A DNA stretch of 64,000 bases, taken from positions 58,301,665 to 58,365,664 of the forward strand of contig OZ034967.1 of NCBI GenBank assembly GCA_964030785.1, given 5' to 3'. How positions within the stretch are numbered: the stretch's first letter is position 1; each line of letters starts with the position of its first letter. The stretch comes from Siderastrea siderea (lineage: Eukaryota > Cnidaria > Anthozoa > Scleractinia > Rhizangiidae). The position numbers and the translations under genes are program-made. This document shows, piece by piece, positions 45,068-64,000 of the stretch. The notes beneath the pieces are model-generated. The model made no database searches, had not been told where the DNA came from, and was given only the letters and a program-made list of their open reading frames with translations.

Positions 45068-45217
45068 TTATTCACTGGTGAAAGTTATGACATCAGCTGG
45101 GAGACCTGAATTTGTGTCCAATTTTAAACCAGCTATCTCTTGAACCTCAATTATGCTCACAGTGTAACTGTTCCAACTTGCATTTTTATTATTAGCGACG
45201 GAATTCACTGTGAAGGT
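45068..45217 (-). pseudogene. 3' end of the fibre gene, cut off by the MULE
   Basis: About 46 codons plus a stop at 45068-45070 lie just left of the MULE target duplication. They are in the frame that would follow the 5' part of the fibre gene (53492-55343) if the insertion and one duplication copy were absent. It has no start of its own and is an orphan fragment. It likely encodes the last strand region of the fibre knob. Confidence 0.8.
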
Positions 45218-45239
45218 GGGCGTTACTAAACACCGGAAC

Positions 45240-45385
45240 GGACCGGAATGGGACGGAATGAACCGGAATGAACCGGAATGGACCGGAATGAACCGGAATG
45301 AGACCGGAATGGACCGGAATGAGACCGGAATGAGACCGGAATGAACCGGAATGAGCTGGAATGAGCCCGGAATGGACCGAAATGA
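45240..45385. repeat. Left subterminal minisatellite of the MULE
   Basis: Imperfect 10-11 bp units GACCGGAATG, AACCGGAATG and GAGACCGGAAT. The same units in inverted orientation are at the right end. Reading through them gives meaningless repeated Phe-Arg-Ser-His or Thr-Asp-Arg-Asn-Gly peptides. Confidence 0.9.
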
Positions 45386-47257
45386 GATAAACTTGAGAAT
45401 AAAAGCAATTTTTTATGTTTACATGCTTTAATATTTTTTCTGGTGGACTGTTTGGAATTAAGTCGCTTTCGCAAGGATGTTCTGATTATTTCCCATTCAC
45501 TACTCCTCGAGTATCCGTTCTACTGGAAAACAACCACTTCAGGGATAAGTATGTTGAAATTGTGACGCACAATATAGAAAGCGGTTCCACATCTCCGCCT
45601 ATTCACTATATAAGTAATTCCAACTCACGTTCTTTTACTCAATACGTTTATTAAACTTCTTTTTCGTGGAAAACTGACACGGCTGTTAAGCATCAGGACC
45701 TATCTCCGTGTGTAAATAATTACAACATTTCAAGTATATAAATAACAGTAATCTGAACAGTTTTCTTAGTCTTACTAACAAGTTGATAGTAGTTTCAGAT
45801 GTTTGCGTTTCTTAAAGTTTATCCTTCACATATGTTTCAATTTCGAGTTAGAAAAATGTGTGTAATTTCAACTCCTTACTCCTACTATCAATGCCTATTA
45901 TATTTGTTACAGAGACAATTTCAATACTTCATATATAATAGCAACAATAGGAAGAATTCATTATCTAATTATTCCTAGCAGTAAAATTTACGAAATTACG
46001 GTTTGCTAGACAGAATATCAGAAAAGACGATCAGTGGAAACAAAACAGAACAAACTACTACCAAAGTGAAACAATCTAGACGACTAATCGTCAATACGCG
46101 CACACTCCTGACAACTTGAAGCTGGGGCAAGAACTAAACAATATCATTGTGGCACTATTTTTAAACTGAAAACCATGGCCAGAAATCTCGTTCCTTGCGC
46201 CCGCGTTAGTCATTCTTCCGAACTAACAAACATGTAATTAAAATAACGAAATTTGATTATTAATAGGTCTCCAATTTTGTTATTTTTTTCCCTTTGACGA
46301 GCTAAGTTTCATTTCCTGAAATTAATTTACAAGTTTATTCCTGAAGTGCATATCGCCTGTCACAGACGGAACGGATAATACAAACAGGATACTTTTGCTT
46401 ACTTGTTGAAATAAGTTATTTGAACGGTCATCGACTGAAAGTCAACTTTAGAAACTCGACTTGTCTCAAAGAAAATGTCTCCTGACCGTTTTCTCCCGCA
46501 ACTGTCACGCTGTCACGCTAACAAGTAGTCCGCTGACCAACAATTTGCGTGTACCCCAGATATCAATACGGTATGACAACAGTTAACTTTGGTGCCAAAC
46601 ATGGCGTACTTATGTCCCGGGACTTATGGATACAAATTGAACTTAAAAGTTCCAGAAGGAAGCAAACTTACGACTTGTTTGTTATCTTCCATCATGATTT
46701 CGGTAGAACCGATTTAAACTGTTGTTAAAGGTCGAATGAGGCATCGTCATACAGAAAGTGAAAGTGGAATGATCGACAGTTACATTGATGCTCGCTTCTG
46801 TTAGCTCGTGTTGTTCTTACACAATTTGCGAACTGCGGCCTATGGAAATTTGGATTTATGCTCGTTGTTAGCGGAAATGTGGATGCATAGCGTTAAGAAT
46901 ACAGAGATTTCCATTACGAACCAAGTATATTTTGGTACAAAGCACTGATGGTATCGATTGCTGCGACATCGTAATGATCAGGCAACATGATAATACCTTC
47001 AGCACTTCAGCCTCAACTCTGGATTGATGAAATGTTCCAGTCCAAATTAAGCTTCATAACAAATTAATATACTTAACTTCATTTCGTCCTATATCTGTTA
47101 AATATAAAATCGGAGATTTCTGGCCATGATGGTTGAAAGACTAGTTTGGAGAGTAATTATTGTCAGGAACTCAGTTCAACAATAACAACAACAGTAATAA
47201 TTAGAGAAACTCGTCATCGAAGAAGCAAAATCACATCTTTCAGTAACAATTTCATGC
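45386..47257. other. MULE interior left of the transposase gene
   Basis: The first 120 bp are TIR. The remainder is AT-rich sequence, probably the 3' untranslated region of the transposase gene and spacer. No other gene recognised. Confidence 0.5.
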
Positions 47258-53191: not shown

Positions 53192-53491
53192 AGCATGGGA
53201 AATAATCAGAAACATTCTTGCGAAAGCAACTTAGTTCCTCACCCTCCACGAAAAAAAATATATAAAAGCATTTCTAAATCTCATTTCAGTCCATTCCGGT
53301 CTCATTCCGGTTCATTCCGGTTCATTCCGGTCTCATTCCGGTCCATTCCGGTCTCATTCCGGTTCATTCCGGTCTCATTCCGGTCTCATTCCGGTCTCAT
53401 TCCGGTCTCATTCCGGTTCATTCCGGTCCGTTCCGGTCCGTTCCGGTCCGTTCCGGTCCGTTCCGGTCCGTTCCGGTGTTTAGTAACGCCC
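53192..53491. repeat. Right TIR and subterminal minisatellite of the MULE
   Basis: Inverted match to 45218-45505. Consists of TTCCGGTCTCATTCCGG-type units (about 53285-53480) ending with CCGGTGTTTAGTAACGCCC. It contains a run of TCCGTTCCGG units not present on the left, so the two minisatellites have diverged in copy number. Confidence 0.85.
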
Positions 53492-55343
53492 CTGTGAAGG
53501 TTCCCCCATCTGTTACTCTTGTCTGTAATTGAAATTTATGAAGCTTGTTTTTGTCTACAACTGTGAAAAAAGAAGCGTTTGAGAGTGTGGCGATGTTTTC
53601 ATAGTCTGGAGCCAACTGAATACCAAAACTGGATCGGATTCTTTTTCCTAATAAAATGGAGCTAGTTGTATTGACTTGTATTATACGGGTATTTTCCACT
53701 TTCTTTGTCGTTGGGTTGATAATATTGGCCACCCAACGACACCAAAGATTGCCTCCGTATTGATCATTACTTACCTGTAGATATGTTACCAGTTTCACGA
53801 CATTGCCAACAGTTGGGTAATTGAAATTCACATAATAGTTGGTTAGGTCTTGCCAAGGACCATCTGTTAACCATGCGATATTGGAAACAATCTTATTTGT
53901 ATACTTAACGATTCTCATTACATGGTTGTTGTGATCATAGTCGTACACTTCTGGATTGACAGTGTCTTGCCAATCTTTCACACCATAAATAATGATGAAA
54001 GCCTGTGGTGAGGATAATGTTGAGCTTCCGTGTAGGTTGAAATAGATGTAATCAAGGGCATCCCTGCTCCCATTGTCGAATTGTACGAGAATCTTTACGT
54101 GATCTGAGAAGCTCTTTTGGATTGTTTTGTGAATATTAGCTGTGGTAGCCTGAGCGGATAGTTGGATGTTGGTATGTGGCCCTAGCGGATAATATTCCAA
54201 GACCGATGTGAATTTGCCGATACTGAGAGGATATAGATTGAATCCGATTTTCGATTGATAATCATTGCTATTAGGATTTTTTAGCAGTCCGACTTTGTAA
54301 GCTAATTTATTCTTGTGAGGGCTTTGTGCGAAATCAGAGATGCCAAGAACCACTATATTATTCTCACTGGAGCTCTCATCCGCATCAAGGAGGTACTTCA
54401 TTGCATTCTTTTTGTTGCTGGAATCGATATGAGATTGTGCCAACGTTTCGTCAATGTAGCTCTTATTAGCAGCACTGCTATTGTATTGAGGTGTGCCGAG
54501 GTTGTTAATCTGTTTTTGATTATTTGGTAATGAAGATAGGAATGTGATAGGAGTTTTCATAACACCTCCTTTGTTTTTATTCAAAAAGGTGTCGTTAATA
54601 TCTTTGAGATTGACAATATCTGATTCTGAATGAGAGGATGGATCAAAATCTGGTACTTGTATTCTTCCCTGAAATGTTTGTGTTGTTGTTTTTGAAAGGT
54701 CTGCTTTTGTACCCAATTGATTGTCAACATACTTCTTATTTACTCCATGGTCTGCATTGACTGGGTCCTTGATATTTGTTATGAATTGATTGTTCATATC
54801 AAGATTGGCTTCCATTAATACTGAACCATCTTTTTTGATGAATTTTGATGAATCAGTTATTGGAATCTTTCTTATCTCACTACCAACATACCCCTTATCA
54901 CTAGCGTGATTAGAAGCAGTTGGTGATTTCAGATTTACGATGTTTAAACCACCCATGTCAATATGTTGCTCCATTCGACCTCCTTCCTTCTTTGACAAGA
55001 ATATCTCTCTTTGCGATTCATAACTGATAACCTTGTTGAGATTACCATGAACTGGATAATTGTCTTTTGGGACAATGAGTGACCCTGTCATCGTATCACC
55101 AGATATTGCAACAAATTTAGATGTATCCACACTTGGAATCTTAGCTATTTCACTATCTAACTGACTTTTTGTAACCACATCATTATTATTGGTTCCTTGT
55201 TTTACATTCACTAATTTTTTATTCTGCATATCATAATCATTATTAGCATCTAATTTAAATCCAATACCAGGTAAACCTCTTGAACCTATCTTACCTAGTC
55301 CTTGAGAATCATCATGATTAAGAATACCGTTTGTATAACTCAT
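53492..55343 (-). pseudogene. Fibre (attachment) protein gene, 5' part, interrupted by the MULE
   Basis: About 617 native codons from the ATG at 55343. The shaft contains repeats of the phage tail-fibre kind, with the pattern MxGxLxMxxxxIxNLxxPxxxxDAxxKxYVD (for example near SGDTMTGSLIVP, NIKDPVNADHGVNKKYVD and NLGTPQYNSSAANKSYID). A beta-rich C-terminal knob follows. A short collagen-like GSRGLPGIG is near residue 20. By analogy it forms a trimeric fibre for host attachment. It lies 11 nt downstream of the ATPase gene on the same strand. The MULE joins at the target duplication, after which the frame runs into transposon TIR and stops at 53418. The missing 3' end is at 45068-45217. Confidence 0.8.
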
Positions 55344-55354
55344 ATATTAATGGT

Positions 55355-56002
55355 TTATATTCTTTCATCGAAATTTCGGGCTACCTTTTTTTTGACCTTA
55401 TCAACATACAAAAAACTATATGGATCCTTAGTAGCTTTCTGATAATCTGATTTATTTATGTTCAGTTCTCGGCAAATCATCGATTGCTCGTTTATAGAAG
55501 GAAAATCAAAAACACAAAAATGTGAACTATTCAGTCTTATTGTTTTATCAGTTCCGTAATAGCTTTGACTCAAATATATACAACAACAATTTTTATTTCT
55601 TGAATTGGTGAAGTAGTCTCGTATCCGTTCGTCATTTTTCTTACCTGTATTCAAATAGTCATCAAATATGATTAATTTTTGGTTTTCATCAGACAAATCT
55701 GTCAGAGGGATGATTTCATCGTTACTTGCTTCTATCACGTCATAACCGACCTCTTTTGATTTTGATATTGGTTCAAGAGATTTCAACAGATGCTTATATT
55801 TGCTTTGTTGGAGATTGCGAGCGTAAAGATATATTTTATCAAAGTATAAGAGCCTGTATATCATATCAAGCAGAAGGTTTGTTTTACCACCACCAGAGGG
55901 AGCACAAATAAGCATCCTGAAACATCGGTTTGGCATGAAACTCTTTAATTGAACAAAATTGTTGTTTTCATCATCTTGAATGTCGTAATTTTGAATCTTC
56001 AT
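55355..56002 (-). CDS. A32/FtsK-HerA-type DNA packaging ATPase
   Basis: 215 residues. Walker A is APSGGGKTN (about 34-42) and Walker B LIIFDDYLN (about 109-117), followed by a serine/tyrosine-rich sensor segment (CCCIYLSQSYYGTD). Size and motif spacing fit the small genome-packaging ATPases of Polintons, adintoviruses, virophages and poxvirus A32. It would pump the genome into the capsid. Intact. It starts directly after AACATATTATC in the shared start motif and is the first gene of a leftward pair with the fibre. The 128-bp spacer to the rightward capsid operon acts as a divergent control region. Confidence 0.88.
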   Translation of the reverse strand: MKIQNYDIQDDENNNFVQLKSFMPNRCFRMLICAPSGGGKTNLLLDMIYRLLYFDKIYLYARNLQQSKYKHLLKSLEPISKSKEVGYDVIEASNDEIIPLTDLSDENQKLIIFDDYLNTGKKNDERIRDYFTNSRNKNCCCIYLSQSYYGTDKTIRLNSSHFCVFDFPSINEQSMICRELNINKSDYQKATKDPYSFLYVDKVKKKVARNFDERI

Positions 56003-56130
56003 ATGATAATATGTTATACAATTTTATCGCATGACGACACGCTATGCGACACGCTATGCGAGTGTTTTAATATATGATAACCCTAATTTTTCCGAACAAA
56101 ATATGAAATTTTATGTAAACAAATGATATA
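56003..56130. promoter_or_regulatory. Divergent promoter region between ATPase and capsid operons
   Basis: 128 bp, AT-rich, between two outward-facing start codons, so it must hold promoters for both directions. It contains the direct repeat ACACGCTATGCG twice (about 56038-56061) and TATAA/TATGATAA motifs. Both flanking starts sit in the AT-rich start motif (AACATATTATCATATG and AACAAATGATATAATG). Confidence 0.6.
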
Positions 56131-57137: not shown

Positions 57138-57899
57138 ATGAATAGACAACTTGTATTATCCAGTCATATCGTCAAAGGTATAAGTGGTAATAAACCATCA
57201 GATTTCACAATCAAATACAGTAATCCGATAATACTGGATTCAAACAGACAATATGAAATCGGCCTAGACCGAATCATTTCGATGTCATTCACTTTTTTTA
57301 ATGTGACAAGGGAACTTGATAATCAGAAAATCAGATATTCAACAGATAGTGGTACTAATTGGACGGAAATTATATTCAACCCTGGAGTATGGAATTACAT
57401 TGATTTTGACAATTTAATTAAAGAAAAAACAAAAACAGGAACCTCATCAAACCCTCAATATCCAATCACTCTGGAGTTTAACGATACTGTATTCAGGACA
57501 ATAATAACACTAGCCTCAAATTACAGATTAGATCTTACTCAAAGTAATTTTAATGATCTTATTGGTTTCAATAAAAAGATTCTAACAAGTACTGTAAATG
57601 TTGGAGATTACATTCCTAATCTCTCACAAGACAGAGAAATATTGAATGTTCATTGTGATTTGATAAGTGACAGTCTTGTCGATGGTGAAGAGTCAGATAT
57701 TATATATAGTTTCAGTACCTCAACTCTCACCCCGAGTTATAGTTTCACACAAGAGCCTCGACGAGTACAGTACAACCCGTGTAATAAAAATACGATTAAT
57801 AAAATAAGAATTTATATCACCGACGGTAAGAGGAGAATCATCGATCTTAATCATAGTGACACTTCATTCAGTTTGATTTTAAGAGAGAAGAGAGATTAA
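57138..57899 (+). CDS. Penton-like minor capsid protein
   Basis: 253 residues, beta-rich, beginning LVLSSHIVKG and ending with a strand-rich segment (KIRIYITDGKRRIIDL). Position between the ATPase/PPxY genes and the major capsid gene, length and predicted all-beta content fit the single-jelly-roll penton of Polinton-like viruses. It would occupy the capsid vertices. Intact. It starts at ATCATATAAATG, a strong copy of the shared start motif, 8 nt after the preceding stop. Confidence 0.65.
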   Translation: MNRQLVLSSHIVKGISGNKPSDFTIKYSNPIILDSNRQYEIGLDRIISMSFTFFNVTRELDNQKIRYSTDSGTNWTEIIFNPGVWNYIDFDNLIKEKTKTGTSSNPQYPITLEFNDTVFRTIITLASNYRLDLTQSNFNDLIGFNKKILTSTVNVGDYIPNLSQDREILNVHCDLISDSLVDGEESDIIYSFSTSTLTPSYSFTQEPRRVQYNPCNKNTINKIRIYITDGKRRIIDLNHSDTSFSLILREKRD

Positions 57900-58299: not shown

Positions 58300-59570
58300 A
58301 TGAGTTTCAGAACAAATGAAAATCTACAACGATATGAATACGTTCGTTTCCATTTGGATAATGTCATTGAGCAACCTGCTAACAATCAAAGCCAGAAAAA
58401 GACAGGTTACAGATTCACTATCAACGATAGGTCGACAATGTTCGATTTTTTCAATGGGTATTTCGAAATAACTAAAGAGCTTCAAAAAAAGGCAGATGGT
58501 ACTGGATATGCTCAAGCAGATCGCATCACCATGATAAACGGATCTCACAGTCTAATCAGACATATGGTTATCAAATCTTCAGGCAAAATTGTGTATGAGA
58601 GTGATAATTTGCATCGAATAACGAATGTCAAAAATCTCCTTGAATACAGTCATGATTATAGTAGATCCGTTGGAAAGAATTCGTTCTGGTATCTTGATAC
58701 TGATGGAACTACAGCAAATACAAACACAGGTTTTGAAGCCCGTCGTATTTTAACCCAAGCAGCACAAAACAACGGTGGTGGGGGAGCTAAAAGTATTAAT
58801 GAGATGCTTCCCTTAAACAGATACAGCTTTTTTCAAGAATTAGAAAGAAAAATGTTGCCTCCGATGCAGCTCACAATTGAACTTACATTTAACGAAGACA
58901 GTGAACTGATTCACATGGCAAATGGCACAGACCCTGGTCGTGTTGTAGTAAAGAGATTGTATCTTTGGCTCCCAAGATTAATCCCAAAAGACAGCATGTA
59001 TAGTAATTTCGTTTCAGAGTTTCTTATATGCGAGATCTCTACAATCAGTCAGCAAATACCAGAGCTATTCAGAATATGTTTCAAATCAGTCCAGCTATCG
59101 ATGACGTTAAACATGTTTTTATATATCTCCAGAGGACAGACGGACCAAATGCTGATGAAGCAGAGAGGAGTCCGTATTTGTTTGACACTTTCAAGTTGAA
59201 TGCCGCTGACGCTAATAGCTCTCTCTCTAGCTGCCGTTTAGAATACGGAAACAATACATTTTACCCAGAGCTCGAATATGATGCAGATTCAAAAATCAGG
59301 ATATTCAATGATCTCATGTCATATGCATTTCGTAAGAACGATTACAATTCAGGAACACAGCTTAATGTATCCAATTTCACTAGTTTGTATGGATTATTGT
59401 ATTTCGATTTGTCATATCAGAAAGAGGTAGTGACGAGAGATCCTAAACAGTTGATTCTCCATTATCGTCTCAATGTAGCCCCGACAGCAAACGTCCGAGC
59501 TCATAGCATCGTATTTTACGAGAGTGAGGTTGTAGTCAAGACAGTTGGAAACGAATTGATGATAGTTTAA
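58300..59570 (+). pseudogene. Double-jelly-roll major capsid protein, broken by a -1 frame change
   Basis: Two overlapping frames (58300-59199 and 59028-59570) carry the N- and C-terminal parts of one capsid protein of about 420 residues. The N-part has FDFFNGYFEI, LPLNRYSFFQELERKMLPP and a strand ending KRLYLWLPRL. The C-part has PYLFDTFKL, CRLEYGNNTFYPELEYD, YRKND-like FRKNDYNSGTQLN, LYFDL and a conserved end. This is the order I know for Polinton/adintovirus hexon-type capsid proteins. The change occurs at about 59020-59028. No X XXY YYZ heptamer is in frame there and no stem is evident, so a one-base loss (or a sequencing error) is more likely than recoding. Start motif CTCATATAAATG. Confidence 0.85.
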
Positions 59571-59644
59571 ATAAATAAGTTTTACATCGATGAAAATTTA
59601 AATGAATATGTTTTTTAAAAGATAATTTATCTAACATATATTAT

Positions 59645-60487
59645 ATGACACAACTATACGAAATTAAAGTTAGTTTATCACCAAACCAGAAAAAGAATCT
59701 TAGTAACGCGTATCATAAAAGAGAAACAATAGTTCTAAGGCTCACGAAGGACTCTCTATCTGGGAATGATACTCTGTATGTACCTCAGAATATAGCTAAG
59801 CGATTGGAAAAAAATAGAAAATTGAAAAAGGGAATGGACATTAAACTTTCTAAAACAAACATTCGAAAGCAATTAGGTGGATCTCTTCTGTCTACAGTTC
59901 TGACGCTTGGAAGAACTTTTGTTCCAACGATTGCTAAGACTCTTGGATTGTCGGCTTTAGCTGGAGCAGCTAGTGAAGGAGCATCTCAGATTGTTAAGAA
60001 GATATCTGGAAAAGGTGTTCAAACCGATGGGTTTCTCATACCACAAAATAAAATCGATCAGTTGATAGCATATAAACATCTTTTGACAACCAAACAAAAG
60101 AAGGATATATTAAATGCTCTACAAACAGGCTCTGGTGTTCATATAAAACCGACTAAAGTACAAACAGGTGGATTCTTAGGTACTCTTCTTGCATCAATTG
60201 GAGTCCCTTTAGCTATTGAGGCAATAAAGAAGATGACTGGTAAAGGTGCCCCTCAGATGGGACAACCAAAACAAAGACCACCCAGATCTATATCACAACT
60301 AACCAATGATAATCAGGATGGTGGTTTGTTAATGCCAATGTATAGAACACCGCCTTTTTATGGAAATTGGCCGAACGGTACAATCGGTATGGGGACTAAA
60401 AAAAAAGCTCCCAAAAAGGGCAACGGTCTACTATTGGGCAAGAACTCACCCTTCAAAAACGTCCCTCTTCTAAACATTCTGTTGTAA
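59645..60487 (+). CDS. pVI-like minor virion protein with Gly-rich hydrophobic segments
   Basis: 280 residues. The N-terminal 60 residues look like an alpha/beta domain found at the start of several Polinton virion proteins. Two Gly/Ala-rich amphipathic segments follow: TVLTLGRTFVPTIAKTLGLS (about 85-103) and FLGTLLASIGVPLAIEAI (about 177-194). Each is followed by a site fitting the adenain consensus, ISGKG (about 120-124) and MTGKG (about 197-201). The C-terminus GNGLLLGKNSPF..VPLLN is a signature I recall from cnidarian elements. A membrane-active, protease-processed role like adenovirus protein VI is inferred. Its last 85 nt overlap the -1 frame of the protease, beginning at an A9 run (60398-60406). 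Confidence 0.65.
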   Translation: MTQLYEIKVSLSPNQKKNLSNAYHKRETIVLRLTKDSLSGNDTLYVPQNIAKRLEKNRKLKKGMDIKLSKTNIRKQLGGSLLSTVLTLGRTFVPTIAKTLGLSALAGAASEGASQIVKKISGKGVQTDGFLIPQNKIDQLIAYKHLLTTKQKKDILNALQTGSGVHIKPTKVQTGGFLGTLLASIGVPLAIEAIKKMTGKGAPQMGQPKQRPPRSISQLTNDNQDGGLLMPMYRTPPFYGNWPNGTIGMGTKKKAPKKGNGLLLGKNSPFKNVPLLNILL

Positions 60488-60945
60488 AACCGAAATTCCA
60501 TAAGAATGTCCCATTAAGCAATTATGATTTAATAAAATGGTGTAAATATCTGGATATCCCAATCAAAGATGTTCTGTCTCGAGATGAAACTGTCCCACAT
60601 AATCATAGACAGGCTCTATTCATTTACAATCTTGAACCGAGTTATATGTCAGGGAGCCATTGGGTTGCTACTTATGTGAAAGATAACGTCATCAATTACT
60701 TTGATTCATTTGGTTTGCCTCCCTTCCAAGAAATGGTCAATCATGCTAAAAAGAAGAACTTAACATTGCTTCATCAGAACAATCAAATACAAAATTTACT
60801 AACAACAACATGCGGTTACTTCTGTTTATACTTTTTGAATGAGATGAATAAGGGTAAATCATATTTTGATCTGCTTCAGGTATTTGATATATATGATACA
60901 ATGAAGAATGAGAGGTTTCTAGCACGGTATTTCAAAAATATCTAA
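60400..60945 (+). CDS. Adenain-like cysteine protease (C5/C48 type), start unclear
   Basis: Maturation protease. Visible catalytic elements are GSHW (His), YFDSFG (Asp), QIQNLL (oxyanion Gln) and TTCGYFC (nucleophile Cys). The only in-frame ATG (60646) lies just before the catalytic His and would remove the conserved N-terminal part (PLSNYDLIKWC..IPIKDVLSRD). The frame is open back to 60400 without any ATG. Possible routes are -1 slippage at the A9 run in the pVI-like gene, a near-cognate start (ATT at 60433) or a lost start codon. It stops 11 nt before the zinc-ribbon gene. Predicted substrates with (M/I/L)xGx-G sites are its neighbours. Confidence 0.82.
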   Translation, partial: KKSSQKGQRSTIGQELTLQKRPSSKHSVVKPKFHKNVPLSNYDLIKWCKYLDIPIKDVLSRDETVPHNHRQALFIYNLEPSYMSGSHWVATYVKDNVINYFDSFGLPPFQEMVNHAKKKNLTLLHQNNQIQNLLTTTCGYFCLYFLNEMNKGKSYFDLLQVFDIYDTMKNERFLARYFKNI

Positions 60946-60956
60946 TCATATTATAT

Positions 60957-61142
60957 ATGAAATCATATTGCGTGAAACAAAAGATGGTCACAGAATGTGT
61001 GCCTGGGAGTGAACGATATGAAAAGGCTAAAAATGGGAGGCTTATGCTTAAATGTACTTGTGCAGAATGTGGAATCACTAAGACGAAATTCGTCAAACAG
61101 GCGGGAAACGGGTTAGCCCGTCGAAAGGGGCGGGCTTACTAG
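60957..61142 (+). CDS. Small zinc-ribbon protein (DUF5679-like), also N-terminus of a frameshift product
   Basis: 61 residues. The cysteines are SYC near the start and CTCAEC in the middle, with the pattern YCVK..NGRxMxKxTCxxCGxxKTKF typical of small DUF5679-like zinc proteins of giant viruses and Polinton-like elements. Function unknown. It ends in the frame that contains G GGA AAC at 61103-61109, 30 nt before its stop. A -1 shift there would extend it into the PLA2 frame. Start lies in CATATTATATATG. Confidence 0.65.
   Translation: MKSYCVKQKMVTECVPGSERYEKAKNGRLMLKCTCAECGITKTKFVKQAGNGLARRKGRAY
61103..61136 (+). promoter_or_regulatory. Predicted -1 ribosomal frameshift site 1 (GGGAAAC plus hairpin)
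   Basis: In the zinc-ribbon frame the codons read GCG GGA AAC, giving a canonical X XXY YYZ heptamer G GGA AAC (61103-61109). After a 5-nt spacer, AGCCCGTC (61115-61122) pairs with GGCGGGCT (61129-61136): 7 Watson-Crick pairs and one G-U, closing a 6-nt loop. Slipping back one base enters the PLA2 frame, which has no ATG upstream of its conserved start region. GGGAAAC is a known functional slippery sequence (for example in lentiviruses). Confidence 0.75.
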
Positions 61143-61789
61143 ATACAGTAGCATCAACTGGTACTGATTTATTGATTCACCACGGTATTCCTTGGCTGGG
61201 AAAAAAGGCTGTTGAAATGGGAAGATATTACGGATCAGAAGCCTTGAGAAACCCAAAACTGCAGAAAAAGGCTATCGATTATGCTCTGGATAAGTTGAAT
61301 CCAATGATTCAAAATGTTGGAAGTCAAGCTCTTGATCAATTATCTACTAAAATCAGACCAAATAGAAAGTATAAAACTGACAGGAAGGATTTGGATGGTG
61401 CTGGTGTTGATATACATAAACTAATTGGGAAAATACCGAAACCAAAAGCTGGATGGACTCCTGGAAAGTATAAATACATGGGACCATACAACCCTCTCGA
61501 TAAACAGTTAGAGTATGATAGGAACACTGGAGAGGTCACCAAGTGGCACGTACAACCTTACAATAAAGTGGATGAAATAGCAGCTCATCATGATATTTGT
61601 TATGATATGGGGAAAAACAAAGGTGAATGTGACAAACAAATGGTTAAGTCATTGGATGAAATACCTTATGGACAGATGCCGAAATGGGGACAAACTGCTC
61701 GGTTCTTGATTAACACAAAGCAGAAACTGGGTCTTGGGACAAAAAACGGAAAAGGCCGTCGAGTGAAGAAAACTGGCAAGAAAAATTAG
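61109..61789 (+). CDS. Virion phospholipase A2 (parvovirus VP1-type), no ATG of its own
   Basis: The PLA2 core has the calcium loop YMGPYNPLDK and catalytic HHDICYD, followed by a helix with CDKQM, as in parvovirus VP1 and related virion PLA2 domains that breach endosomal membranes. Upstream is a helical region (HGIPWLGKKAVEMGRYYGSE) and LDGAG, an adenain-type cleavage match. The frame is open from 61082 and conserved-looking from about 61127, but the first ATG is internal (61217). The most economical reading is synthesis by -1 frameshifting from the zinc-ribbon gene. The frame ends at 61787-61789, inside the next frameshift hairpin. Confidence 0.8.
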   Translation, partial: RVSPSKGAGLLDTVASTGTDLLIHHGIPWLGKKAVEMGRYYGSEALRNPKLQKKAIDYALDKLNPMIQNVGSQALDQLSTKIRPNRKYKTDRKDLDGAGVDIHKLIGKIPKPKAGWTPGKYKYMGPYNPLDKQLEYDRNTGEVTKWHVQPYNKVDEIAAHHDICYDMGKNKGECDKQMVKSLDEIPYGQMPKWGQTARFLINTKQKLGLGTKNGKGRRVKKTGKKN

Positions 61790-61834
61790 CTGATGAGCTT
61801 CATAAGCCAATAAAGCGTAACTTTACTCGACGGC
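61741..61834 (+). promoter_or_regulatory. Predicted -1 ribosomal frameshift site 2 (AAAAAAC plus 14-bp stem)
   Basis: PLA2-frame codons ACA AAA AAC give A AAA AAC (61741-61747), the slippery heptamer used by mouse mammary tumour virus gag-pro. After a 7-nt spacer, GCCGTCGAGTGAAG (61755-61768) pairs with CTTTACTCGACGGC (61821-61834): 13 Watson-Crick pairs and one G-U, over a 52-nt loop that contains the PLA2 stop. A -1 slip leads directly into the integrase frame. A pseudoknot using the loop is possible but not traced. Confidence 0.82.
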
Positions 61835-62706
61835 GTGTTTTAGTAAACGGCATTGACGAGTTATGGTGCTCTGATATTGTTGAGATGCAAAAGTTCAGTC
61901 GATGGAACGCTGGCTACAGATATCTTCTTATGGTTTTAGATTTATTCTCTAAGTACGGTTGGATCGTTCCATTAAAAGATAAAAAGGGTGAAACCGTTAT
62001 GAATGCTTTTAAAACAATCTTTAAAGAAGGTAGAAAACCAGAATATCTTTGGACAGACAAAGGCAAAGAGTATTACAACAAACATGTTAAGGAACTACTT
62101 GATAAGAATAAAATAACCTTGTACTCAACCGAAAATGAGGAAAAGTCGTCAGTTTGTGAAAGATGGAACAGAACAATCAAGTCCAAAATGTGGAAGCAGT
62201 TTACTGTTCAAGGTAATACACAGTATTTAGACATGCTACCCAAATTAGTGAAACAATATAACAACACCAGACATTCAAGCACAAAGATGACGCCAACAGA
62301 AGCCAGTAAAAAGAAGAATGAAGGGACTGTTTACTTTAATCTATACGGTGATATGGAAACATCAAAACAGAAACCTAAATTTAAAGTTGGTGATAAGGTC
62401 AGAATAAGTAAGTATAAACGAAATGTGTTTGATAAGGGCTATACACCAAATTGGTCTGAGGAAGTTTTTACAGTTGATGAAATCCAATCCACTGTTCCTG
62501 TCACTTACAGACTGAAGGATCTCAGAGATGAAGACATTCAAGGGAGTTTCTATGAACCCGAATTGCTTAAAGCTACACAAGAGGTATTCAGAATCGATAA
62601 AGTCATTCGGAGGGATTATAAAAAGGAGCAAGCTTTGGTTAAGTGGAAGGGGTATAGTGATGAATTCAACAGTTGGATACCGTTCAAGGACTTGAAGGAT
62701 ATATAA
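61747..62706 (+). CDS. Retroviral-type integrase with C-terminal chromodomain, no ATG before the active site
   Basis: rve-fold DDE integrase that would insert the element into host DNA. Catalytic residues are D in WCSDIVEM (codon 61873-61875), D in WTDKGKEYY and E in VCERWNRTIK. Next come an SH3-like segment (KFKVGDKVRISKYK) and a chromodomain (FRIDKVI..QALVKWKGYSDEFNSWIP) that would bind histone tails. The first ATG (61885) is after the first catalytic Asp, so it cannot start a functional protein. The frame is open back to 61714 without ATG and includes the usual upstream helix (NWQEKLADELHKP). Production as a PLA2-integrase fusion through frameshift site 2 fits. Confidence 0.88.
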   Translation, partial: RKRPSSEENWQEKLADELHKPIKRNFTRRRVLVNGIDELWCSDIVEMQKFSRWNAGYRYLLMVLDLFSKYGWIVPLKDKKGETVMNAFKTIFKEGRKPEYLWTDKGKEYYNKHVKELLDKNKITLYSTENEEKSSVCERWNRTIKSKMWKQFTVQGNTQYLDMLPKLVKQYNNTRHSSTKMTPTEASKKKNEGTVYFNLYGDMETSKQKPKFKVGDKVRISKYKRNVFDKGYTPNWSEEVFTVDEIQSTVPVTYRLKDLRDEDIQGSFYEPELLKATQEVFRIDKVIRRDYKKEQALVKWKGYSDEFNSWIPFKDLKDI

Positions 62707-63256: not shown

Positions 63257-63292
63257 ACAGGTTTAAACATAAAATAAAATATATAATTATAT

Positions 63293-64000
63293 ATGGAAAT
63301 TTTCACTTATGAAGGAAAAAAACTGAATATTATCAAAAAGGATGATGATATTTGGTTTCGTGGTAAAACAGTTGCTAGCATTTTGGGATATTCAAATTCA
63401 CGAAAAGTGATTAATGATCATGTTGATGAAGAAGATAAATGTTCACTTAAGAGGCTCAAATCCAAGGGGGACGATTCGTCCCCTTTAACTGAGGTTGATG
63501 AAAATGACCAAAAATCCAAGAGTAACGATTCGTTACCTTTGACTGGGAACCTCAAAAACACGATTTATATAAATGAATCTGGATTGTACAGCCTAATATT
63601 GAGATCAAAAATGGATAAAGCTAAAGATTTCCAACGTTGGGTAACAAAAGAGGTTTTACCATCAATCAGAAAAACAGGACGATTTGAATTCAACAACAGG
63701 CCATACAAAATGCTGACATTCAATATCAACACAGAATATGATTTACATAAAAAGGTAGTCAACTTTATTAGAAACAATTATCCTAAAGCAATCCTAATCC
63801 CAACATTAGGTGAAAACCAAATTAATGGTAACATGAGAATAAAATCATACAACATGGGTTATCAGAAGGGAGCTTGTGATCTATTCATTGGAAATATGCA
63901 TTTGAAGTACTCAGGTTTTGCAATCGAATTTAAAACACCAACTGGTTATGGAAAGCTTTCAGAAGAACAGGAGATGATGCTACAAGAGTATGAAAACAAC
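63293..64000 (+). CDS. BRO-N protein with PD-(D/E)xK-like nuclease domain (truncated by window end)
   Basis: The N-terminal BRO domain has IWFRGKTVASILGY, a KVINDHVD helix and INESGLYSLILRSKMDKAKDFQRW ending VLPSIRKTG (quoted in parts: INESGLYSLI, FQRWVTKEVLPSIRKTG). BRO-N proteins of baculoviruses and other DNA viruses bind nucleic acid. The C-terminal part has GACDLFI and AIEFKTPTG..LSEEQ, a D..ExK pattern typical of VRR-NUC/PD-(D/E)xK nucleases. An internal duplication, KSKGDDSSPLT then KSKSNDSLPLT, lies in the BRO loop. Starts at ATAATTATATATG. No stop before the window ends. Confidence 0.78.
   Translation, partial: MEIFTYEGKKLNIIKKDDDIWFRGKTVASILGYSNSRKVINDHVDEEDKCSLKRLKSKGDDSSPLTEVDENDQKSKSNDSLPLTGNLKNTIYINESGLYSLILRSKMDKAKDFQRWVTKEVLPSIRKTGRFEFNNRPYKMLTFNINTEYDLHKKVVNFIRNNYPKAILIPTLGENQINGNMRIKSYNMGYQKGACDLFIGNMHLKYSGFAIEFKTPTGYGKLSEEQEMMLQEYENN

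Follow-up and report, generated by a model that had tools for sequence, protein, structure and literature searches.

A candidate two-step -1 ribosomal frameshift cassette leading to the integrase of a Polinton/adintovirus-like element in Siderastrea siderea

To our knowledge, the way in which the integrase of Polintons and adintoviruses is made and delivered is an open question, and a locus in the scleractinian Siderastrea siderea bears on it. The window analyzed here (the whole stretch of 64,000 nt from contig OZ034967.1) contains at its right end part of a Polinton/adintovirus-like element, which continues past the end of the window. In this element an integrase frame (61714-62706, plus strand; rve E 1.3e-11, Chromo E 4.2e-7) lies -1 to a phospholipase A2 (PLA2) frame (61082-61789, plus strand; Phospholip_A2_4, PF08398, E 5.1e-8), and it contains no ATG before its first catalytic Asp (residue 54), the first Met being residue 58. 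How, then, is the integrase translated? A preliminary description of this DNA had interpreted the PLA2-integrase junction as a programmed -1 frameshift signal, an interpretation that is supported by the sequence comparisons reported here. We consider it very probable that the junction belongs to a cassette in which ribosomes are programmed to shift by -1 at two steps, composed of three overlapping frames (DUF5679-like, PLA2 and integrase), each -1 to the preceding one, with an in-register canonical heptamer at both junctions. In most families a stem is located 6-9 nt downstream of the heptamer and is kept across many copies.

The element and its PLA2-integrase junction

Among the core genes of Polintons (PolB, integrase, C5 protease and packaging ATPase), the rve integrase and a packaging ATPase (55358-56023, minus strand; Pfam Pox_A32, E 1.6e-10) are present in the window. 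The ATPase had no match among solved structures up to E 0.1. The C5-type protease may be represented by a weak match, an adenain-like frame at 60400-60945 (plus strand; Peptidase_C5 E 0.015, below cut-off), which overlaps a basic ORF from the ORF listing (59606-60487, plus strand). The first frame of the cassette is a DUF5679-like ORF of the zinc-ribbon type, 61 aa long and with its own ATG (60957-61142, plus strand), whose match to Pfam DUF5679 (E 1e-4, 22.8 bits) is below the curated cut-off of 27. The PLA2 part gave only weak matches to parvovirus VP1 among solved structures (E 0.19 and 0.96), and an Rfam search of 60900-62000 gave no match up to E 1. No relatives of the integrase were confirmed in IMG/VR or in GTDB species genomes, and the only organism named among its listed close relatives was Oculina patagonica, a stony coral (P0071).

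Several other features were recorded in the window. For a double jelly-roll capsid protein, the capsid-like ORFs at 58300-59199 and 57138-57899 were compared with Pfam, where no match reached its cut-off. The ORFs 58300-59199 and 59007-59570 overlap in different frames where one capsid-like protein is expected; a canonical heptamer is absent from their overlap, and the window copy may be damaged at 58300-59570. Translations with repeated SHSG/IPVHSG-like units, located on opposite strands at 45068-45519 and 53192-53532, flank the interval from 45.5 to 53.2 kb, and the minus-strand ORF 53418-55346 ends in a related repeat. An ORF at 63287-64000, which we take to resemble a BRO-N/antirepressor protein, is still open at the window end.

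At the PLA2-integrase junction (site 2), the two frames overlap by 76 nt. The heptamer A AAA AAC occupies 61741-61747 in the exact X XXY YYZ register, as seen in the sequence and the ORF listing, the PLA2 frame reading ACA AAA AAC. It is followed by a 7-nt spacer (GGAAAAG, 61748-61754) and by a stem of 14 pairs, one of them G-U, in which the 5' arm (61755-61768, plus strand) pairs with the 3' arm (61821-61834, plus strand) according to the fold and the pair counts; the PLA2 stop codon (TAG, 61787-61789) sits within the loop. The preliminary description was accurate in all of these features, as well as in the register of the two frames and the missing ATG. The fold of 61748-61840 had an energy of -30.7 kcal/mol against a shuffle mean of -17.4 (sd 3.25, n = 200), with none of the 200 shuffles as low (z -4.10), which agrees with the rule for programmed frameshifting that a stable RNA lies about 5-9 nt 3' of the heptamer.

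The preliminary description had judged coincidence unlikely from heptamer, register, spacer and stem together; a heptamer by itself is not rare. When the two sites reported here were excluded, 20 in-register heptamers were counted in 3079 codons of the element's frames, and a heptamer is expected by chance in about 15% of 25-codon overlaps; comparison between copies was therefore needed, and it is this comparison together with the structure that carries the case.

The upstream junctions

A second signal, overlooked in the preliminary description, is located upstream, between the DUF5679-like ORF and PLA2 (site 1). The PLA2 frame is -1 to the DUF5679-like ORF, and its first ATG in the window is at 61217. 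The heptamer G GGA AAC, identified from the sequence and the ORF listing in the register of the DUF5679 frame, occupies 61103-61109 (plus strand) and is followed, after a 6-nt spacer, by a GC-rich hairpin in the fold at 61116-61135 (plus strand; 61116-61122 paired with 61129-61135, with an extra pair 61115-61136). The fold of 61110-61180 had a z of -3.99, with 1 of 200 shuffles as low. When the window was searched for the pattern of this site (GGGAAAC, six free bases and GCCCG, with up to two mismatches), four matches were found against 1.72 expected, and only site 1 was exact.

The site-1 heptamer was present in 62 of the 70 records with upstream sequence, as GGGAAAC in all records having it, and was missing in eight (L017 and L071, which are one place, L027, L029, L030, L042, L044 and L063). 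Twenty further regions, taken 5' of additional loci, included 19 with G GGA AAC, in 17 of which the DUF5679 stop lies directly 3' of the heptamer; L129 was without the DUF5679 motif. Stem 1 was paired in 90.8% of cells, compared with 36-55% when slid, but only two of its pairs were changed on both sides. A set of 76 copies, selected for carrying the heptamer and a Pro-Ser motif, showed synonymous differences in 7.1% of pairs at the hairpin codons (codons 4-10 after the heptamer) versus 24.1% at codons 11-42, while the codon in the hairpin loop varies between Lys, Glu, Thr and Ser.

One copy, L043, has a different but paired site-1 stem. Judging from this copy and from L048-L050, families seem to have exchanged their DUF5679/PLA2 and integrase parts; the distinct stem of L043 is accompanied by an integrase nearly identical to those of L037 and L040, suggesting recombination at or near the junction.

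The junction between the basic ORF and the protease has some similar features. The protease frame is -1 to the basic ORF, overlaps it by 88 nt and contains A AAA AAA at 60400-60406; in the window its first Met is at index 82 and no ATG precedes the GSHW motif. A similar -1 overlap with A-runs recurs in other loci covering this junction. The protease frame of some families does contain an ATG. No RNA structure was detected 3' of the A-run in the window (z 0.73). A third frameshift or transcriptional slippage is possible at this junction, although unproven, and the A-run could act otherwise. A candidate cleavage motif of the adenain type before the PLA2 domain was found in 64 of 67 records here but in 68 of 137 database proteins, and was left unused because of the latter count.

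Comparison of copies and alternative explanations

The genome searched comprises 831 Mb in 402 contigs, and all compared DNA comes from this one genome. A DNA search yielded 40 scored copies (92-100% identity) of 735 candidates, and an integrase protein search yielded 118 scored matches of 3703 candidates, all of whose junctions were read. Conservation of the heptamer, which the preliminary description had proposed as a check, was found in 117 of the 118 matches, with the two frames apart and the heptamer canonical and in register, a count that does not represent independent trials, since the copies are related by descent. The heptamer is A AAA AAC in 105, A AAA AAA in 8 (7 being copies of the L058 family) and U UUA AAC in 4, and no PLA2 tail was found in the integrase frame. 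Where U UUA AAC has replaced A AAA AAC, both encoded peptides are different, and the only property preserved is the capacity to slip. The only exception, L085, has a single frame with one internal stop and no heptamer. A mixed set of 105 records, which correspond to 104 places since L017 and L071 share one, included 15 fetched by means of a fused query protein; 98 of its records were non-fused and 7 fused, and the heptamer was present in 96 of the 98, being absent from L016 and L080.

In a tree of 70 integrases, a clade of five (L058 and others) is separated from the rest by about 0.95 changes per site and keeps both junctions. The integrase is under purifying selection (pN 0.060, pS 0.346; 65 of the 70 copies), as is PLA2 (pN 0.039, pS 0.238; a 60-codon part in 62 copies). 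The elements carrying this integrase are very numerous, and some copies share 600 nt of integrase sequence without a difference, suggesting a recent spread.

The limits of the frames constrain the position of a slip. Across the 96 records with a site-2 heptamer, the distance from the end of the preceding -1-frame stop to the heptamer is as short as 3 nt (L068 and L081), and in 14 records the 0-frame stop follows the heptamer directly (U UUA AAC UGA and A AAA AAC UAA types); thus, little but the heptamer is left for the slip, the stretch common to all 96 records being 3 nt plus the heptamer. The corresponding stretch remaining at site 1 is 6 nt plus the heptamer.

Other expectations of the preliminary description were borne out in part. 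The site-2 stem was kept with its 7-nt spacer in most families folded but is absent from the L103-L106 family, and the L058 family has a different, paired stem in its place. Compensatory change was scarce, which makes this part of the case weaker than expected: 94.5% of cells were paired (31-49% when slid), but only one pair was changed on both sides, and synonymous change was not evidently reduced in the 3' arm of stem 2. An integrase frame initiated at its own ATG had been named as a finding that would speak against the shift; an in-frame upstream ATG was found in 34 of the 98 non-fused records, mostly of two unrelated kinds, but in none of the other 64, which include the window. A fused single frame, named in the same sense, was seen in 1 of 118 matches of the integrase search, but in 7 of the 16 junctions picked by the fused query protein. 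Of 92 matches to that query, these 16 extend across the two domains (five are free of stops) and comprise 7 junctions in one frame, 8 with separate frames and the heptamer, and 1 with neither. The fused junctions are unlike one another and therefore look like sporadic length changes, and the rarity of fused copies suggests that the product ratio matters.

The database relatives were compared as proteins only, and some may come from the same species as the window. Among the 120 PLA2 relatives listed of 1398, 88 had the LGLG tail, with 62 distinct endings; 51 of these contain Lys-Asn and 8 Leu-Asn (59 of 62), 1 contains Lys-Lys and 2 contain neither. Lys-Asn and Leu-Asn are what AAA AAC and UUA AAC would encode, and the background for Lys-Asn is 11.9% of 20-residue windows. 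The DUF5679-like ORF had 362 relatives, the listed ones being mostly 61-62 aa long; Gly-Asn follows a KTKFVK motif in 109 of the 120 listed, and several of those missed by the pattern hold Gly-Asn too. Many database gene models of the relatives join PLA2 and integrase, while others start the integrase at varying places, both of which the frameshift may explain.

These gene models could also be explained by splicing, which would join the frames or expose an integrase exon and make the heptamers incidental. Automatic models often bridge PLA2 and integrase, and the narrow stretches common to the copies constrain slippage and not splicing. Nevertheless, we regard splicing as very unlikely, as it leaves unexplained the in-register heptamers at two junctions and the stems at fixed spacing, and the purine-rich stretch 5' of the conserved integrase start would make a poor acceptor site. 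Heptamers and stems would be equally unexplained if integrase and PLA2 started independently, by internal or leaky initiation at an ATG or non-ATG codon. Such starts are compatible with the integrase-frame ATG of the 34 non-fused records and with the PLA2-frame ATG found near the frame start in some families, and at 61217 in the window. They are nonetheless highly improbable when 64 of 98 records lack an integrase ATG, when the existing ones are mostly of two unrelated kinds, and when the integrase frame of L068 and L081 opens only 3 nt before the heptamer.

Slippage of the polymerase, rather than the ribosome, on A-runs would have suitable sequence at many site-2 junctions, with their runs of A6 to A8, and at the protease junction, where the A-run is longer. 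The homopolymers in GGGAAAC at site 1 and in the TTTAAAC of 4 of the 118 site-2 junctions are too short for it, however, and the RNA structure downstream suits ribosomal slippage, making this explanation extremely improbable. We give just as little credence to the idea that the heptamers are by-products of double-frame coding, or the split frames remains of a decayed ancestral fusion. The junction is indeed lysine-rich and A-rich, fused open copies exist, and damage also seems to affect other ORFs of the window copy (58300-59199 overlapping 59007-59570 in a different frame). Yet, copies whose 0-frame stop directly follows the heptamer have no double coding beyond it and still retain heptamer and stem, while the different kinds of heptamer encode different peptides; decay, in turn, is at odds with the separate frames of 117 of 118 matches and with the differences among the fused junctions.

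The proposed mechanism and its relation to known systems

Under programmed ribosomal frameshifting, most ribosomes starting at 60957 would stop after the 61-aa protein. A fraction would slip at G GGA AAC into the PLA2 frame, and a fraction of those would slip at A AAA AAC into the integrase frame, giving products in falling amounts (DUF5679 > DUF5679-PLA2 > DUF5679-PLA2-integrase). Since PLA2 of the parvovirus type is a domain of capsid proteins and is required for entry, our guess is that the shift probably links a small amount of integrase to a protein of the virion or of entry, in analogy to gag-pro-pol, and the integrase may be packaged via PLA2.

The gag-pro-pol genes of betaretroviruses and deltaretroviruses are expressed by double -1 frameshifting, through three serial -1 frames of which the integrase is last, and the heptamers of retroviral gag-pro-pol belong to the types G GGA AAC, A AAA AAC and U UUA AAC, with stems downstream. 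The cassette is alike in its three serial -1 frames, its kinds of heptamer, its downstream stems and the final position of the integrase. In contrast, it is part of a DNA element with a packaging ATPase and a putative adenain-like protease, and its first products are DUF5679-like and PLA2 proteins rather than Gag and protease. No Pfam match to a reverse transcriptase was found in the cassette, the frames of 60957-62706 matching only DUF5679, PLA2, rve and Chromo. The cassette is thus predicted to work like gag-pro-pol, but it is not one.

The available text of PMC4061559 describes PLA2 as N-terminal in most capsid proteins of parvoviruses and as important for entry. The element resembles Polintons/Mavericks and adintoviruses, as described in the available parts of PMC3671162 and PMC11071296, in its chromodomain integrase, packaging ATPase and putative C5-like protease, and a figure legend of PMC3671162 marks a PLA2 domain. 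In contrast to the element described here, no frameshift link between PLA2 and integrase appears in these parts of either source. The nearest precedent is in the preprint PMC11071296, whose available text suggests possible -1 sites in adintoviruses for two cases only, the region close to the 3' end of penton genes and hexon-adenain fusions. Judged by titles and the beginnings of abstracts, none of the papers listed in searches of the open literature on Polintons, Mavericks, adintoviruses or DNA transposons describes a frameshifted PLA2-integrase junction, most subscription papers being outside this scope. The -1 shift is shared with those eukaryotic DNA viruses that use -1 recoding, which are relatively few according to the review PMC8310308; this review contains neither the word polinton nor the word integrase.

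A serial frameshift tying the integrase to a PLA2 of the parvovirus-capsid type would explain by what mechanism and in what stoichiometry the integrase is made, would offer a route for its packaging, and would be a DNA-virus counterpart of the retroviral gag-pro-pol, frameshifting being known in relatively few eukaryotic DNA viruses (available text of PMC8310308). More tentatively, and with rather less than even confidence, we suggest that coral-type Polintons follow a retrovirus-style plan of translation with as many as three -1 shifts (from a basic core protein to protease, and from DUF5679 to PLA2 to integrase). Protease and integrase would then exist solely as rare extensions of proteins of the virion, and the integrase would be carried into the next cell by its link to the PLA2 entry protein. 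If true, this would mean that Gag-Pro-Pol evolved convergently in a lineage of double-stranded DNA viruses.
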